Below are positions 50,467-62,647 of a DNA stretch of 64,000 bases, piece by piece. Below the pieces are notes generated by a model. It saw nothing but the letters and a program-made list of their open reading frames with translations. It had not been told where the DNA came from and ran no database searches. Every line of letters starts with the position of its first letter. Position 1 is the first letter of the stretch. The stretch is taken from the NCBI RefSeq assembly GCF_000421765.1, contig NZ_ATXQ01000003.1, positions 62,001 to 126,000 on the forward strand, in the 5' to 3' direction. A program made the translations under genes and the position numbers. The stretch is from Denitrificimonas caeni DSM 24390. GTDB taxonomy: Bacteria; Pseudomonadota; Gammaproteobacteria; Pseudomonadales; Pseudomonadaceae.

Positions 50467-50684
50467 CCTTCAAAGACTCTGCTCATGCGAGATGTAAGAA
50501 AAACTTCTTCTTAACCAGTCGATCCACTTCCAATATTTAAAGCTAGTCTACTTCTGCAATCATCTCCCTATGCTTGGCTCCAGGCAATCCTAAATAATCT
50601 ACTCATCAGCCCCCGAAAATAAAAACGCTTTTTATGCCTGTTTAATACCCTGAAAGCAAATTAAGCCAACCGTTACATATTCAA

Positions 50685-50702
50685 CAAACAAAATATTGTT
50701 TG
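50685..50702. repeat. AT-rich palindrome CAAACAA-N4-TTGTTTG
   Basis: Perfect 7-bp arms around AATA, about 135 bases upstream of the PepSY gene. Could be an operator; no regulator is suggested by the sequence. Confidence 0.4.
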
Positions 50703-50773
50703 TACTCTCTGCCGCGCTGTCGGCCGATCAAAAGCTCAAAAGCTTTCTCTTATACTCACATTCAACCCAGCCA

Positions 50774-50790
50774 ATTAAGGTTAACTTAAG
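50774..50790 (+). promoter_or_regulatory. PmrA/OmpR-type direct repeat upstream of the PepSY operon
   Basis: ATTAAG-N5-CTTAAG, two half sites with 11-bp spacing. It matches 11 of 12 positions of the PmrA-type box YTTAAK-N5-YTTAAK that I remember. It lies 46 bases before the ATG of the first gene, a usual place for an activator box overlapping -35. Confidence 0.6.
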
Positions 50791-50835
50791 GTGTTCAGCC
50801 TAAGGTAAAAGCGTAAGCCTCATTGGGGAAACGCC

Positions 50836-51192
50836 ATGAAAAAATCACCGCTAAGCATCGTTCTAGTTGTTACCACACTTATGACAGGCACAGCCTTGGC
50901 TGATGACGACTGCAATGATCCAGTCGCCGACTGGCAGTCTAGGGAAACTCTACGCCAGATGCTTGAAGCTAAAGGCTGGACAGTCAACCGCATCAAAGTC
51001 GATGAAGGCTGCTATGAAGTCAAAGGCTTAGATCAAAACGGCAATAAAGTCAAAGCCGAGTATTTTCCTGCATCACTGCAGCTGCGCAAATTAGAAACCA
51101 AATTCGGCAAAAATGCGCTGGTCCCAGAGCAGATTTATCAACGCAACACGCCACAACACAATAAGCAACGCAACATCGGAGAAAAGCCATGA
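50836..51192 (+). CDS. PepSY domain periplasmic protein
   Basis: 118 residues: signal peptide (cleavage after ALA-DDD), then a single PepSY_2-like domain with WQSRETLRQMLEAKGWTVNRIKVDEGCYEVKG in two parts around residues 35-66, and a polar tail. Two cysteines (CNDP and GCYEV) could form a disulfide. Overlaps the DUF2271 gene by 4 bases. Small proteins of this type are often under two-component control; the direct repeat upstream agrees. Function unknown. Confidence 0.8.
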   Translation: MKKSPLSIVLVVTTLMTGTALADDDCNDPVADWQSRETLRQMLEAKGWTVNRIKVDEGCYEVKGLDQNGNKVKAEYFPASLQLRKLETKFGKNALVPEQIYQRNTPQHNKQRNIGEKP

Positions 51193-51659
51193 AAAAGCTC
51201 GCTATTATTCTGGGCATGGCAGCGATTATCGCCTTGCCAACCCTCGCTCAAGCTCGCGAAGTAACCTTCACCACACAACTGCAAAACTACCGTGGTGACG
51301 GTGCTTATCTCGCACTCTACTTAGTCGATGCCAACGGCACATACCAACGCACACTGTGGGTCGCAGGCAAAAAAGCCAAATACTACAAACACTTACCGGA
51401 CTGGGCCCGCGGCAGTGGATTGCGCAGCAGTGAATACGATGGCGTAACCGGCGCTAGCGTTATGAGTGGTAAAGCCCTCGATGTCACCCTTGATATTCCC
51501 GATGCGCTGATTGATGCCGGCTATGAAGTGCGGGTGGACACGGCAGTTGAGGACATGCGCGATAACCGTGCTGATGCCAGCGCGCCACTCACCAGTGATG
51601 GTGTAGGCAAGTCCTTTCCCGGTCGCGGTTATGTGAAATCACTGAGCTACAGCTTTTGA
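51189..51659 (+). CDS. DUF2271 family periplasmic protein
   Basis: 156 residues with signal peptide (cleavage after AQA-REV). FTTQLQNYRGDGAYLALYLVDANG and GVTGASVMSG are typical of DUF2271, a beta-rich periplasmic family usually encoded beside PepSY-TM flavoreductases. It may be a partner or substrate of the reductase. In some operons such proteins occur with FMN-flavinylated extracytoplasmic redox systems; the phrase GVTGASVMSG resembles flavin-attachment D/S-G-A-T/S motifs, but this is only suggestive. Confidence 0.8.
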   Translation: MKKLAIILGMAAIIALPTLAQAREVTFTTQLQNYRGDGAYLALYLVDANGTYQRTLWVAGKKAKYYKHLPDWARGSGLRSSEYDGVTGASVMSGKALDVTLDIPDALIDAGYEVRVDTAVEDMRDNRADASAPLTSDGVGKSFPGRGYVKSLSYSF

Positions 51660-51686
51660 TCCTGAAGACTCAAGGAGACGATTGAG

Positions 51687-53912
51687 ATGCTACGCCAACT
51701 TCACTCATTACCCGGCCTGATTGCCGCGGTGTTTGCCATAGTGCTGGGTGTTACTGGAGCGATTTTATCGCTTGATCCAGCGCTGGAGCGCGTCAACACG
51801 ACCGTGCCAGCAGCAGGGACGCTCAGTGTCGCCGAGTTAACAGCGAAGTTGGCGCTGCATTATCCAGACGCTGAACAGATTGTTCGCACCCCTTCAGGCA
51901 CGCTTGTTGTCTACTTCAGTCGTGACGGACAAGTGGGTATTGATCAAGCAGACCCTCTCACTGGCGCTAGTATTGCACCCTATCAACCTTCAGCATTCTC
52001 ACGTTGGATAAAAAACCTGCATCGCGCACTGCTGCTTGACACCACAGGCCGGGCGCTTGTAGGGATCACTGCATTATTGATGATTCTCTTAGCGGTTTCT
52101 GGAGCAATGCTATTGGCCGCACGGATGGGTGGATGGCGTCAGTTGCTGCAACCGGTGCGCGGCACGCTGAGTCAGCGCCTGCATATCGACTTTGCCCGCG
52201 TGGCGATTGTGGGCTTGCTGCTCTCAGCACTGACTGGCGCTTATCTGTCGGCCAGCACTTTCGAGCTGGTCTCCGAAGGTGTCGAGGCCGATCCAGAATT
52301 ACCGCTAGAGGTTGCCGAAGGTGTGCCTACCGCTATTGAGACATTAGCAGTCTTAAAGGCGACCGACTTTAACGATTTACGTGAACTGGTTTACCCCTAC
52401 CCTAACGATCCTGCTGGCATGTACTCAATGACCACTGAGCAAGGTGCTGGCTATATCGATCAGGTGAGCGGCGTTTGGCTGTCATATCAGCCCCATGACG
52501 CAACACATGCATTCTATGAGTTTATGTATATGCTGCACACAGGTGAAGGGCTGTGGTGGCTGGGGTTGCTGCTAGGACTGTCTGCTCTAAGCGTGCCGCT
52601 ACTGACGGTTACTGGCACTATCATCTGGTGGAAACGTCAGAGTTCAAAGCCCAAGTTAGCCAACAACAGTAGTGCAGACTCGGCTGACAGCGTGCTTCTC
52701 GTCGGTAGCGAAAGCAATACAACCTGGGCCTTTGCTAAAACCTTACACGACGCTTTAGTTCAAGCAGGCCATCGCGTGCATACCGCGCCAATGGATCAAC
52801 TGGCCAGCCATTATCGTGCGGCACAACGGTTGTTCATTTTAACCGCAACCTACGGTGACGGCGACGCCCCCGCTTCGGCTAAGCACTTTCTAAAACGACT
52901 GGAAAAGATTACCCAGCAACCGACCTTTGCCACTGCCATCCTGGGCTTTGGTGAGCGCCAATACCCCAATTTCTGCGGCTTTGCCAAACAGGTTGAAAGC
53001 GCATTACACGCCAAAGACTGGCCACAGCTGTTGCCACTCGACACCATCAACCGACAGTCTCCGCAAGAATTCAATCGCTGGGGGCATTCCCTCGGAACAG
53101 CGCTGGGTGCAGAGCTAAATCTATTGCATACCCCAGTGCGACCTAAAACCACCACCCTGGAATTGGTTGAGCGTGCAGATTACGGCATTGCCGTGCAAGC
53201 GCCAACCGCAGTGCTGCGTTTTAAATTACCTGCAGAACTGCACAGCAGCACAGCACTTAAGCGCTTATGCAAACGCACCGGCATGCCTTATTTTGAGGCG
53301 GGTGACCTCGTGGGTATTTTTCCGCCCGACAGCTCAATAGCGCGTTTTTACTCGCTAGCGTCTGCCTCTATCGACGGCACTCTTGAAATCTGCGTACGTC
53401 AGCACCTTGGTGGAGTCTGCTCAAACTTTCTTTACACTCTGCCCATTGGCGGCCGCATGGAAGCCTTTATTCAGCCCAATCCAAACTTTCGCCCTGCCAC
53501 TGGCAAAGCACCTGTCATATTGATCGGCGCAGGCACTGGCATTGGCCCATTGGTCGGCTTTATTCGCCACAATCAAACGCTGCGTCCGATGTACCTGTAT
53601 TGGGGCGGTCGCTCATCTGAGTCAGACTTCCTCTATGAGCCAGAGCTTAACGCTTATCTCAAGGATCGGCGCTTGACCGAGCTCAACGCCGTGTTCTCCC
53701 GTAGCGATGAGCGCGCCTACGTACAAGATAAAGTTGCTCTAGATAGTGAAAAACTGCGCAAATTAATCGAAGGCAATGCGCAGATTCTAGTCTGCGGCGG
53801 TCGAGATATGGCCAATAGCGTGTCAACTACTATCAATGCAATCATCTCCCCTTTAGGTATAGACCTCGCCACTCTGAAAGCCCAAGGCCGCTATCTAGAG
53901 GATGTGTATTGA
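51687..53912 (+). CDS. PepSY-TM / flavodoxin / ferredoxin-NADP reductase fusion protein
   Basis: 741 residues. N-terminal PepSY-TM module with helices at about 9-29, 122-146, 172-192 and 289-315 and histidines His6, His112, His166 and His284 that may bind haem. Cytoplasmic flavodoxin domain about 335-475 (LLVGSESNTTWAFA, LTATYGDGDAPASA). Reductase domain 490-741 with FAD site RFYSLAS (553-559) and NAD(P) site IGAGTGIGPL (613-622). This is a full route for electrons from NADPH through FAD and FMN across the membrane to a periplasmic acceptor, as in bacterial sulfite-reductase-like flavoreductases and ferric reductases. Confidence 0.88.
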   Translation: MLRQLHSLPGLIAAVFAIVLGVTGAILSLDPALERVNTTVPAAGTLSVAELTAKLALHYPDAEQIVRTPSGTLVVYFSRDGQVGIDQADPLTGASIAPYQPSAFSRWIKNLHRALLLDTTGRALVGITALLMILLAVSGAMLLAARMGGWRQLLQPVRGTLSQRLHIDFARVAIVGLLLSALTGAYLSASTFELVSEGVEADPELPLEVAEGVPTAIETLAVLKATDFNDLRELVYPYPNDPAGMYSMTTEQGAGYIDQVSGVWLSYQPHDATHAFYEFMYMLHTGEGLWWLGLLLGLSALSVPLLTVTGTIIWWKRQSSKPKLANNSSADSADSVLLVGSESNTTWAFAKTLHDALVQAGHRVHTAPMDQLASHYRAAQRLFILTATYGDGDAPASAKHFLKRLEKITQQPTFATAILGFGERQYPNFCGFAKQVESALHAKDWPQLLPLDTINRQSPQEFNRWGHSLGTALGAELNLLHTPVRPKTTTLELVERADYGIAVQAPTAVLRFKLPAELHSSTALKRLCKRTGMPYFEAGDLVGIFPPDSSIARFYSLASASIDGTLEICVRQHLGGVCSNFLYTLPIGGRMEAFIQPNPNFRPATGKAPVILIGAGTGIGPLVGFIRHNQTLRPMYLYWGGRSSESDFLYEPELNAYLKDRRLTELNAVFSRSDERAYVQDKVALDSEKLRKLIEGNAQILVCGGRDMANSVSTTINAIISPLGIDLATLKAQGRYLEDVY

Positions 53913-54000
53913 GCCTGGATACACTGTTCGCGCCACTCTTAAGTTAAAAAGACACAAAACATGCCCGGAGCTCTATGCCTTGTTACTTTTACAACACTCG

Positions 54001-54132
54001 CTAGACCAGCGACTTACCCTCTTTCTTCGCTTTACGTATATCAAAGACTAAAGCGCTACACAGCGTTATCAGTACCAAGGTTGATAGCACCGGCCAAATC
54101 AGTACATACACAGTCAATCCAAATGTAGTCAT
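54001..54132 (-). CDS. Small membrane protein, putative transporter small subunit
   Basis: 43 codons from ATG 54132 with AAGGA ribosome site 8 bases upstream, ending TAG at 54001-54003. Sequence starts MTTFGLTVYVLIWPVLSTLV, has one membrane helix (about 6-28) and a basic tail (DIRKAKKEGKSLV). It lies 11 bases after the symporter stop on the same strand. I recall very similar short proteins annotated as putative transporter small subunit after sodium:solute symporters in Pseudomonas. Confidence 0.75.
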   Translation of the reverse strand: MTTFGLTVYVLIWPVLSTLVLITLCSALVFDIRKAKKEGKSLV

Positions 54133-54143
54133 CTTAATTTTCC

Positions 54144-55799
54144 TTAAGCTTTTGCTTCAGCTTCGGCTTCGGCTTCGGCTTCTTTATGGAATTTAATCAC
54201 TTGTTGATTAATACTATCAAAGTTGAAGTCAGGGGCTTTGCTGCGCAAAGTGATCAAGGTGCAGATAATTGTGCTGGCACCATAAGCCGTTAATGAACTG
54301 AGCAATACAGCATACTCACGTAAAAAACCTACCGTAAAGAACACTAAAATGCTGGCGGCCATGACACCGACAATTAAGCCCGCTATTCGGCCAAAGAAGC
54401 CAAAGGTCATCAAACCAATCACGACACCACCGCCGACAGCAGCAATAATCTCAAAGAAGACGGCGACTGCACCTTCAATTGGTAACCAACTAAAACGCAC
54501 GACTAAGAACAAGATGAACGACAGCGCAACCGACAGAGTAAATGCCGCATTAGTTACGCGGTTCCAATACAGACTGGCAATCACAGGAAATACGATCGAA
54601 CCCCATAACGCACCGACAAAAATCAGCATGGACAAAATATCCAGCTTTAAGCTGGCAAAAACCACGCCCAGTGCAGCAGCGACAACCATGGTCATGCGAC
54701 CAACCCACAGCATCTTTAGCGGGTCTGGCTTATTCTTGGCTATGTGCTTGCCATAGACATCGGTCATCACAATGGCCGACAGAGCAGATAAGTCAGAGTC
54801 GGCAGTGGAAGACAAAGAGCCGATCACCATCACAAACAACATTGCCACCATAAAGGGCGGCAAGTAGGTTGCAGCCATCTGCGGAATCAAGTTATTAAGA
54901 TCGCCATCAATCGGGGTAACACCAGCCAGTAATGCGAGCAGCCCCAGCATTCCTAAACCAATAACAATCGAACCATAACCAATGGTCGCCGTAATAAAGC
55001 TGGATTTAATTAAGTCTTCACGCACAGCAAATAAGCGCTGAGCAATGGTTTGGTTACCGATGGCATAGGCCAATACTGCAACAAAAAACGGTGCGCCCTG
55101 CTCTAATATCGCGGTCGTGGAAAAGAAGTCTTGCTGCTCTAAAGTAAGGTTCGCCATGCCTGTTTCAAACAACGTCGGCCCGCCGAGCTGAAAGAAGATC
55201 ATCGGAATAATAATCACCGCAGCTAAAATCATCGCAACTAACTGGCCAAAATCAGTGAAGACCGATGCTCTAAAACCTGACCATAAGGTATAAGACAAGA
55301 CCCCGACACCAGCAATCACCACCCCTTGGACAAAACTCAACGGCGAGAGAATACTGACCAGTGCGCCCGCCGCTGTGAAGTTCACCATCAAACTGATCAC
55401 ACTGCCCACCACATTGGAGCCGGCTAAAATCATCTGACTGGAAGTGCCGTGGCGCGCATGCATAATTTCTGCAAGGGTGTGCGCGTCAGGAGCGAGCTTG
55501 CGAAAGCGTCGACCAAAAGGATAGATAAAGAGAATCATCAGCGCGCCCCAGAAACCGTAATGAATCGCACCAGAAAGACCGTACTTATAGCCGGAGCTGG
55601 CGGCCGCATAAAAGGATGCAGCCCAAATCCAAGTCGCGGTCATGCTGGCTGCCGACATGCCATAGCCTACAGAACCATTGGCTGTCATATAACCATCGGC
55701 GTTTTCTTGTTTTTTTCCGATACGCAGGGTCAAGAGAAAGGTTGCACCGTAAAACCCTAGTAGGATCAACAGCGCCGAACTCGTCGTAAACTGAAACAT
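54144..55799 (-). CDS. Sodium:solute symporter (SSS family)
   Basis: 551 residues with 13-14 membrane helices. SSS features: GYMTANGSVGYGMSAASMTATW near the N-terminus (about 35-56), AEIMHARHG, TLWSGFRASVFTDFGQ, and SSTADSDLSALSAIVMTDVYGK (Na-site region). Substrate not identifiable; relatives carry carboxylates, urea or amino acids. C-terminus is an Ala-Glu repeat. A 43-residue protein follows. An inverted repeat at 56000-56015 lies in its upstream region. Confidence 0.88.
   Translation of the reverse strand: MFQFTTSSALLILLGFYGATFLLTLRIGKKQENADGYMTANGSVGYGMSAASMTATWIWAASFYAAASSGYKYGLSGAIHYGFWGALMILFIYPFGRRFRKLAPDAHTLAEIMHARHGTSSQMILAGSNVVGSVISLMVNFTAAGALVSILSPLSFVQGVVIAGVGVLSYTLWSGFRASVFTDFGQLVAMILAAVIIIPMIFFQLGGPTLFETGMANLTLEQQDFFSTTAILEQGAPFFVAVLAYAIGNQTIAQRLFAVREDLIKSSFITATIGYGSIVIGLGMLGLLALLAGVTPIDGDLNNLIPQMAATYLPPFMVAMLFVMVIGSLSSTADSDLSALSAIVMTDVYGKHIAKNKPDPLKMLWVGRMTMVVAAALGVVFASLKLDILSMLIFVGALWGSIVFPVIASLYWNRVTNAAFTLSVALSFILFLVVRFSWLPIEGAVAVFFEIIAAVGGGVVIGLMTFGFFGRIAGLIVGVMAASILVFFTVGFLREYAVLLSSLTAYGASTIICTLITLRSKAPDFNFDSINQQVIKFHKEAEAEAEAEAKA
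54154..54183. repeat. 6-bp tandem repeat (GCTTCG)n in the symporter C-terminus
   Basis: Five units of a GCTTCG-type hexamer (three exact, two with one change), encoding (EA)n at the end of the symporter. Being a multiple of 3, copy-number change would lengthen the tail without a frameshift. Confidence 0.85.
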
Positions 55800-61268: not shown

Positions 61269-62647
61269 TATTCGCTGAGCGGCGAGTTTTCGCCAGCACC
61301 AGAAAAACTTAAACCATATTTGCGCAACTTATCGTGCAAGGTTTTGCGCGGTAGCTGTAAAGCTTCTGCGACTTCACGCAGAGACTGATGTGGATTGAGC
61401 AGTTCTCTGGCGATCAAACTGCGCTCATAGGCGTCTACCTGCTCATTTAAAGGCAGATCATCTGCTGCGATGCCTGCAGTTGCGAGCGCCGGACTGATTG
61501 CCAAATCCAGCCCTAGAGCAAAACGCTCTGCAGCATTCTGCAATTCACGCACATTGCCCGGCCACTCATGGCCTAATAATAATGCTCGTGTGACTGGGGT
61601 TAATGTCGGTTCAGGAATAGCGTGTTTGTCACTGGCAGCACTAACAAAGTACTGAAACAGCGGCAAAACATCCTCGCTACGCTGGCGTAAAGGGGGAATA
61701 TTAATCTGTGCGACATTCAACCGATAATACAAATCGGCACGAAAACGTCCTGCATCAGCCGCGTCTAATAAGTTTTCTTTACTTGCAGCAATGACACGGA
61801 TATCCAAGGGAATCAGTTGATTCGAGCCAACACGTTCAACCACCCGCTCTTGCAGTAAGCGCAGTAATTTAACCTGTATATCGAGGCTCATGCTCTCTAT
61901 TTCATCAAGAAACAGCGTCCCACCATTGGCATATTCAAACTTACCAATACGGCGCTTTTGCGCGCCGGTAAAAGCGCCGCTTTCATGGCCAAATAATTCA
62001 CTTTCAATCACTGACTCTGCCAACGCCCCAGCATTGATCGCTACAAAAGGAGCATCGCGACGTGCTGATAAATCATGCAAAGCACGCGCCACGACTTCTT
62101 TCCCACTACCAGTTTCACCTAAAATAAGCACGTCAGCTTGGATCGTTGCCAATGCACTCACCTGTTCACGCAAACGCTGCACGCTCGGTGAATGCCCCAA
62201 CAAGCGCTCTCCCAATACACGCTGTTCGCTCAAAGCCAAGCGTAGTGAGCGGTTTTCCAGAACTAAACGCCGCACTGCCAAGGCTCGTCGTACACTATCA
62301 AGCAGCAACTCGCTGGCAAAAGGCTTTTGTAAAAAATCATAGGCGCCAATGCGCATTGCTTGTACTGCTAACGGCACATCCGCGTGCCCCGTAATCAGAA
62401 TCACCGGCAATTGCCCATCCAGATTCTGCAGCTGCTCTAAGAGCGCCAGCCCATTCATACCAGGCATACGAATATCAGTGACTAATACGCCGGGCCACTG
62501 CGCCGGCACAGCTTCAACTATACCTTCAGCGCTGTCGTATGCTTGCACGCGCAAGCCTGCCAAATCAAAGGTTTGCGACAATGCCGTGCGCAAATGGATG
62601 TCATCATCCAGCAGTAGCACATCGGTTTCATGACTGATCTGTATCAT
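61268..62647 (-). CDS. dctD: Sigma-54-dependent response regulator DctD
   Basis: 459 residues. Receiver with DDD near 14-16 and phospho-acceptor Asp58 (VTDIRMPGMNG), AAA+ domain with Walker A GETGSGKE, sigma-54 contact motif GAFTGAQ, Walker B GGTLFLDEI, and a Fis-type HTH at the end (LREVAEALQLPRKTLHDKL). Activates the dctP promoter when C4-dicarboxylates are sensed. Overlaps dctB by 4 bases. Confidence 0.94.
   Translation of the reverse strand: MIQISHETDVLLLDDDIHLRTALSQTFDLAGLRVQAYDSAEGIVEAVPAQWPGVLVTDIRMPGMNGLALLEQLQNLDGQLPVILITGHADVPLAVQAMRIGAYDFLQKPFASELLLDSVRRALAVRRLVLENRSLRLALSEQRVLGERLLGHSPSVQRLREQVSALATIQADVLILGETGSGKEVVARALHDLSARRDAPFVAINAGALAESVIESELFGHESGAFTGAQKRRIGKFEYANGGTLFLDEIESMSLDIQVKLLRLLQERVVERVGSNQLIPLDIRVIAASKENLLDAADAGRFRADLYYRLNVAQINIPPLRQRSEDVLPLFQYFVSAASDKHAIPEPTLTPVTRALLLGHEWPGNVRELQNAAERFALGLDLAISPALATAGIAADDLPLNEQVDAYERSLIARELLNPHQSLREVAEALQLPRKTLHDKLRKYGLSFSGAGENSPLSE

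Follow-up and report, generated by a model that had tools for sequence, protein, structure and literature searches.

Which regulator acts on the direct repeat in front of a three-gene redox operon of Denitrificimonas caeni DSM 24390, and how did operon and repeat come together? The operon lies at positions 50,774 to 53,912 of a 64,000-nucleotide stretch of DNA (contig NZ_ATXQ01000003.1, forward strand, positions 62,001 to 126,000), the whole of which is called the window. An original prediction, made from this DNA alone, had described a PmrA-like repeat which drives a PepSY/DUF2271/transmembrane flavoreductase operon, and this interpretation was partly supported. In our reading the operon would be a transmembrane electron exporter, the repeat would be the operator of a BqsR/CarR-type regulator, and the present arrangement would have arisen by transfer of the operon and rewiring of its promoter. 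We assign this explanation, taken jointly, a probability of about 0.65. Domains, motifs, conservation of the operator, the missing cognate regulator and the phylogenetic position were established directly from sequence; on this basis the locus reads as a transferred operon that was rewired to a BqsR-type regulator.

The repeat and the operon in the window

The repeat is TTAAG-GTTAAC-TTAAG at 50775-50790 on the plus strand, i.e. TTAAG-N6-TTAAG with half-sites at 50775-50779 and 50786-50790. It can equally be written as ATTAAG-N5-CTTAAG (50774-50790), the form in which it had been predicted. As a candidate BqsR-type activator operator it emerged from the pattern, a genome scan, the published site and a promoter alignment. 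Within the 64-kb window the exact repeat is unique. It starts 61 nt before the ATG of the first gene (50836), with 45 bases between its end and the ATG. Three closely spaced plus-strand genes follow; as predicted, all three open reading frames were real according to Pfam. A PepSY_2 protein of 118 residues (50836-51192; E 4e-27) is followed by a DUF2271 protein of 156 residues (51189-51659; E 3e-35), and both are likely exported, judged by eye from signal-like N-termini. The third gene (51687-53912) codes for a 741-residue fusion in which a PepSY_TM domain (residues 4-317) is joined to Flavodoxin_1 (338-442) and a FAD/NAD reductase part (NAD_binding_1, 612-713). No NCBIfam model exceeded its cut-off for any of the three proteins; CysJ-type models hit the reductase half below cut-off. 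A sigma-70 scan from 50600 to 54150 returned zero sites (shuffle mean 2.9). Such an outcome would suit a promoter that depends on an activator, but it is no proof of one.

The repeat in the genome and in the genus

A genome-wide scan for the repeat, suggested by the original prediction, led to bqs-type and ferric-reductase promoters. In the genome of the window (3.02 Mb, 24 contigs) the exact repeat gave 14 matches at 13 places, one of them palindromic, versus 2 for the reversed control. When the reading frames around each place were read, four of the 13 were at promoter position: in front of the window operon, of an operon in the order PepSY-PepSY-response regulator-histidine kinase, of a lone bqsP-like PepSY gene and of a gene with Ferric_reduct, FAD and NAD domains. 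The lone PepSY gene, with its repeat upstream, is at 1903-2293 of contig C1 and adjoins a gene with an SdiA-regulated domain. The flavocytochrome gene is on the minus strand of contig C9 (20627-21922), with the repeat 61 nt before its ATG and a divergent neighbour that by eye is ligB-like. The related pattern TTCAG-N6-GTCAG, which is dealt with below, occurred 9 times in this genome versus 2 for the control.

Three further genomes of the genus (G003, G007, G008) carry the operon. The repeat is exact in two of them; the third promoter is a run of N. Promoters of the bqsP type in the genus, read over 160 bases and not counting nine weaker bqsQ-type matches, had the exact repeat in 13 of 16 cases, one with one mismatch and two without it. 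For the bqs operon proper the exact repeat was upstream in 8/9 copies. Of ten orthologues of the ferric-reductase gene in the genus, nine carried it exactly and the tenth with one mismatch; in all of them the distance from the site to the start of the matched gene was 58-63 nt. Two ferric-reductase paralogues have TTAAG-N6-TTCAG instead.

A BqsR/CarR-type regulator is encoded in the genome

The PepSY-PepSY-response regulator-histidine kinase operon is bqsPQRS-like and has TTAAG-N6-TTAAG in front. The best match of its response regulator in the PDB was Pseudomonas aeruginosa CarR (= BqsR) with 202 bits over 123 receiver residues. The DNA-binding-domain entry of CarR scored 158 bits over 97 residues, full-length BasR 158 bits. 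The operator of BqsR in P. aeruginosa is TTAAG(N)6TTAAG (PMC4682146; here and below published systems are described as far as the available portions of the cited papers go), and the window repeat is identical to it. We infer that a BqsR/CarR-type regulator, whose gene is located in another part of the genome, uses the repeat as an activator site. Such a regulator would act on the window repeat, on its own bqsPQRS-like operon, on the bqsP-like copies and on the separate ferric-reductase-like flavocytochrome. The predicted label 'PmrA-like' was imprecise, because the repeat is an exact BqsR operator and the genome encodes a BqsR/CarR-like regulator behind an identical repeat; a PmrA/BasR-like regulator is encoded too and stays a candidate.

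In most relatives the operon adjoins a divergent two-component system

The original prediction missed that the operon normally adjoins a two-component system of its own, for which the operator is another one. A scan of the named genomes gave 419 relatives of the DUF2271 protein, and the best 80 were kept, three of them from this genus. A homologue of the fusion was present in 80/80 of these loci. A divergent response regulator was adjacent in 42 and one gene away in 27 (together 69/80), and none was found in 11. Three of these 11 belong to this genus and two have little upstream sequence. After reduction to 49 distinct promoters (24 and 14 in two regulator-linked groups, 11 in the rest), TTCAG-N6-NTCAG was present in 21/24 and 14/14 of the regulator-linked promoters, i.e. 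in 35/38, and in 0/11 of the others. Among spacers of 2 to 12 only a spacing of 6 was found between TTCAG and NTCAG; in 500 shuffles the mean was 0.016 and the maximum 1. TTAAG-N6-TTAAG was confined to two of the 49 promoters, both from this genus. Comparative evidence lent good support to the predicted two-component control and to the predicted periplasmic redox system.

The gene that separates regulator and PepSY_2 codes for a ferric-reductase homologue in 26 of the 80 loci. The ferric-reductase copy of this genome is 43-45% identical to the three intervening homologues compared, and a TTCAG site precedes 26 of 29 plus-strand copies, a count from which near-identical copies were not removed. 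In both settings, therefore, these two redox modules come with a common type of operator.

The divergent regulators formed one clade (60 rows, support 100/99). All 13 response regulators of this genome were placed in the tree, and none was inside the clade, i.e. the cognate divergent regulator is absent from this genome; long branches leave the deeper joins of this tree unsure. For 73 of 76 divergent regulators the best match in this genome, at about 43% identity, was a regulator encoded on contig C7. Near-identical copies of the whole cluster were seen in contigs named Marinobacter, Vibrio, Alteromonas, Halomonas, Rheinheimera, Arsukibacterium and Citrobacter; recent transfer is one likely reason, contamination another.

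A locus of another genus, outside the best 80 (G035), has TTAAG-N6-TTAAG plus a TTCAG-N6-TTCAG pair before a DUF2271 gene, together with ApbE; within the 14 kb covered neither the two regulator queries nor PepSY_2 had a match. Perhaps this is a second, independent case.

Proposed transfer of the operon and change of its operator

The window promoter and those of Halomonadaceae could be aligned through the operator down to the ATG. From the start of the operator to the ATG there are 61 nt in the window, just as in Modicisalibacter, and 59 to 71 nt in the other matching promoters. Compared with the Halomonas-type operator the window has TTAAG for TTCAG and TTAAG for GTCAG, which amounts to three half-site changes. 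In two Halomonas promoters the site reads GTCAG-N6-GTCAG. In a tree of the fusion protein, built on 33 of 76 sequences, the four sequences of the genus grouped with Marinospirillum and Halomonadaceae, not with Pseudomonas, and a clade of the genus with Pseudomonas was rejected (p-AU 5e-9). In the four operon carriers (G000, the genome of the window, G003, G007 and G008) the best regulator match was at most 45% among the matches listed. Within the genus, G009 and G011 have kept the divergent regulator (76% identity), the kinase and PepSY_2 with TTCAG-N6-GTCAG sites, but have neither a DUF2271 gene nor the fusion. The probable donor of the operon would be Halomonadaceae-like, and the divergent two-component system that originally belonged to it would not have come along into the genus. 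The operator would have been altered in place from TTCAG-N6-GTCAG to TTAAG-N6-TTAAG.

That G009 and G011 have kept PepSY_2 together with the kinase is in line with a role as kinase partner like that of Vibrio cholerae DbfQ, a small periplasmic PepSY protein which binds its kinase and belongs to a type of gene pair reported as widespread (PMC12714742). In the genome of the window PepSY_2 was kept with the redox genes, which it may serve too.

A wider proposal is about evenly poised in our judgement. A two-component family of gamma- and some betaproteobacteria, undescribed in the literature searched, would be dedicated to the control of operons for flavin/haem electron export via TTCAG-N6-GTCAG, with PepSY_2 as periplasmic sensing partner. 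The operon would have moved without it into this genus of Pseudomonadaceae and, by three half-site changes, come under the paralogous BqsR, leaving a split genus in which some species have the regulator without the redox genes. The literature search, from which subscription papers were mostly out of reach, listed no paper on two-component regulation of such an operon.

The redox proteins

The membrane half of the fusion was examined in an alignment with 75 relatives (5 of the 80 loci were dropped because no fusion was within the accepted length). H6, H112, H166 and H284 were invariant in 76/76 sequences. Modelled alone (pLDDT 83.5), this half had FoxB as its sole Foldseek match in the PDB at E < 0.001 (E 6e-9, probability 1.00, TM about 0.5). 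A VIA comparison with FoxB gave Z 13.5 over 297 aligned residues, but a large rmsd of 7.2; the next entry had Z 7.0. A profile of the membrane half found FoxB alone among PDB sequences up to E 0.1 (E 3.7e-9). FoxB is a two-haem ferrisiderophore reductase (PMC13038864). The four invariant histidines and the fold match predict a FoxB-like haem core and strengthen the earlier suggestion that haem is possibly involved. A structure search with the whole fusion returned reductases only among the first 50 matches listed, and its other half matched CysJ, P450 reductase and nitric oxide synthase reductase.

The DUF2271 protein has a predicted flavinylation motif, T87-G88-A89-S90 (codons at 51447-51458, plus strand). 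The corresponding [ST]GA[ST] motif was present in 80/80 relatives, as TGAS in 51 and as SGAS in 29; in one species it was demonstrated to be flavinylated by ApbE (PMC8238504). The sole ApbE gene found in this genome is next to nqrF in the nqr operon, and 24/80 of the related loci encode an ApbE. By sequence criteria the redox part is of a known kind, a PepSY-like flavinylation system. The original prediction of two small exported proteins of unknown function was too vague, as DUF2271 is an ApbE substrate in another bacterium (PMC8238504) and DbfQ binds a kinase (PMC12714742). The PepSY_TM domain of the fusion also contains a TGAS, but the idea of a second flavin site at this place was discarded since in the columns read the relatives mostly have TGE or TGQ there.

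Cytoplasmic NAD(P)H electrons would then pass via FAD to FMN of the fusion and from there across two b-type haems in the PepSY_TM domain to periplasmic DUF2271, whose FMN would be attached in trans by the ApbE from the nqr operon. As final acceptor a metal would be most likely, in ferric or cupric form.

A second DUF2271 cluster, situated some 20 kb to the left of the window (contig C3, 36000-48000), consists of a TonB receptor, PepSY_TM_like_2, DUF2271, a DUF4198-like and a flavodoxin/FNR-like gene. On the opposite strand a likely Fe(II)/2-oxoglutarate hydroxylase gene is followed by another TonB receptor gene (several names were given by eye). The cluster resembles a Fur-controlled PepSY cluster of Caulobacter (PMC12004947).

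Alternative explanations

Several observations weigh against the BqsR-based explanation, and some of them point to another regulator. The Fe2+ site of BqsS is R44-E45-x-x-E48-N49 with E48 as an essential ligand (PMC12666569). Aligned by eye, the kinase encoded here retains E48 alone, and among eight kinases of the genus that were read E48 was present in 8/8, E45 in 0/8 and N49 in 2/8. Furthermore, the regulator on contig C7 is a second candidate. It is PmrA/BasR-like, with BasR as best PDB match (177 bits), and it is also the one that comes closest to most of the divergent regulators of the relatives. Encoded with its kinase at 146047-149262, it is divergent from a dsbD-like gene (by eye), and on the minus strand of the promoter region between them TTAAG-N6-TTAAC can be read (by eye). 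In addition, ferric-reductase sites persist where no bqsP homologue was found: exact in G010 (82% complete) and with one mismatch in G009 (99% complete, one contig). The sites of BqsR and of PmrA differ little, and the operon could be a PmrA target or be shared by both regulators. Two observations speak against this. The C7 regulator's own promoter lacks the exact repeat, which the bqs operon has in 8/9 copies of the genus, and no TT[AC]AG-N6-NT[AC]AG site was among the sites listed for the C7 locus. The PmrA-like regulator is a live rival of the BqsR-like one as binder of the repeat, although we consider it fairly unlikely.

Also against our main explanation are the location of the ApbE gene outside the window operon and the fact that, of the 13 places with the repeat in the genome, nine were assigned to no gene start. 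The latter, and a one-mismatch pattern which in the window is not enriched (7 matches versus 5.4 expected; 34 of 100 shuffles reach 7), would suit a chance match in an AT-rich promoter with no regulatory role. This is hardly credible, however, considering that the repeat is exact at the same place in two further genomes with different flanks, that its position equals that of the TTCAG operator of the relatives and that their operator has a specific spacer. As to history, G009 and G011 with their divergent regulator, kinase, PepSY_2 and TTCAG-N6-GTCAG sites would also be compatible with vertical descent of the operon, loss of the two-component system in part of the genus and drift or selection of the operator to TTAAG. 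We regard this as improbable because the fusion groups with Halomonadaceae and Marinospirillum and a Pseudomonas clade was rejected. The genes which flank the operon differ among the four carrier genomes. This also speaks for movement of the operon; at the same time the history may exceed one simple transfer.

If transfer and rewiring to a BqsR-type regulator are correct, this would be a natural case of two-component rewiring which can be read base by base. As to the signal to which PepSY/DUF2271 electron-export systems answer, their regulator gives the best hint. With two defined operators, TTCAG-N6-GTCAG for the dedicated system and TTAAG-N6-TTAAG for the BqsR type, signal and acceptor become testable by simple reporters. 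As a pair, the promoters of Halomonas and of this genus offer a small natural experiment on the least number of base changes that shifts an operon between paralogous response regulators.

Comparison with known systems

Like the PepSY-like flavinylation systems (PMC8238504), the operon combines a PepSY_TM (PF03929) protein which carries an NAD-binding domain with a DUF2271 protein which carries [ST]GA[ST]. It differs in that ApbE and DUF4198 are absent and that a PepSY_2 gene, a fused flavodoxin domain and a two-component operator are added. ApbE is 'frequently' encoded in such clusters according to that paper and is not strictly defining. With FoxB of P. aeruginosa (PDB 7abw) the fusion shares the fold of the membrane half and the invariant histidines. 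The foxB gene adjoins that of a TonB receptor and its electron donor is given as unknown in the available text of PMC13038864, whereas here the donor is fused on. FMN and FAD/NADPH halves are those of diflavin reductases such as CysJ and P450 reductase, in this case linked to a membrane haem domain. SbiTRS of Stenotrophomonas was considered as a model and dropped, as the portions of the source available contain no mention of PepSY or DUF2271.

Closest on the regulatory side is BqsRS/CarRS of P. aeruginosa, with the same kind of regulator sequence, the same PepSY-PepSY-response regulator-histidine kinase order and the same TTAAG(N)6TTAAG operator (PMC4682146, PMC12666569). The Fe2+ site (PMC12666569) is only partly kept in the kinase here, and the presumed target, a DUF2271 redox operon, is not named as a BqsR target in the available portions of the two papers. 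DbfQRS of Vibrio cholerae likewise encodes a small periplasmic PepSY protein with a two-component system (PMC12714742); here, redox genes are in the operon of the PepSY_2 gene as well, and the latter has in this genome been parted from its kinase.

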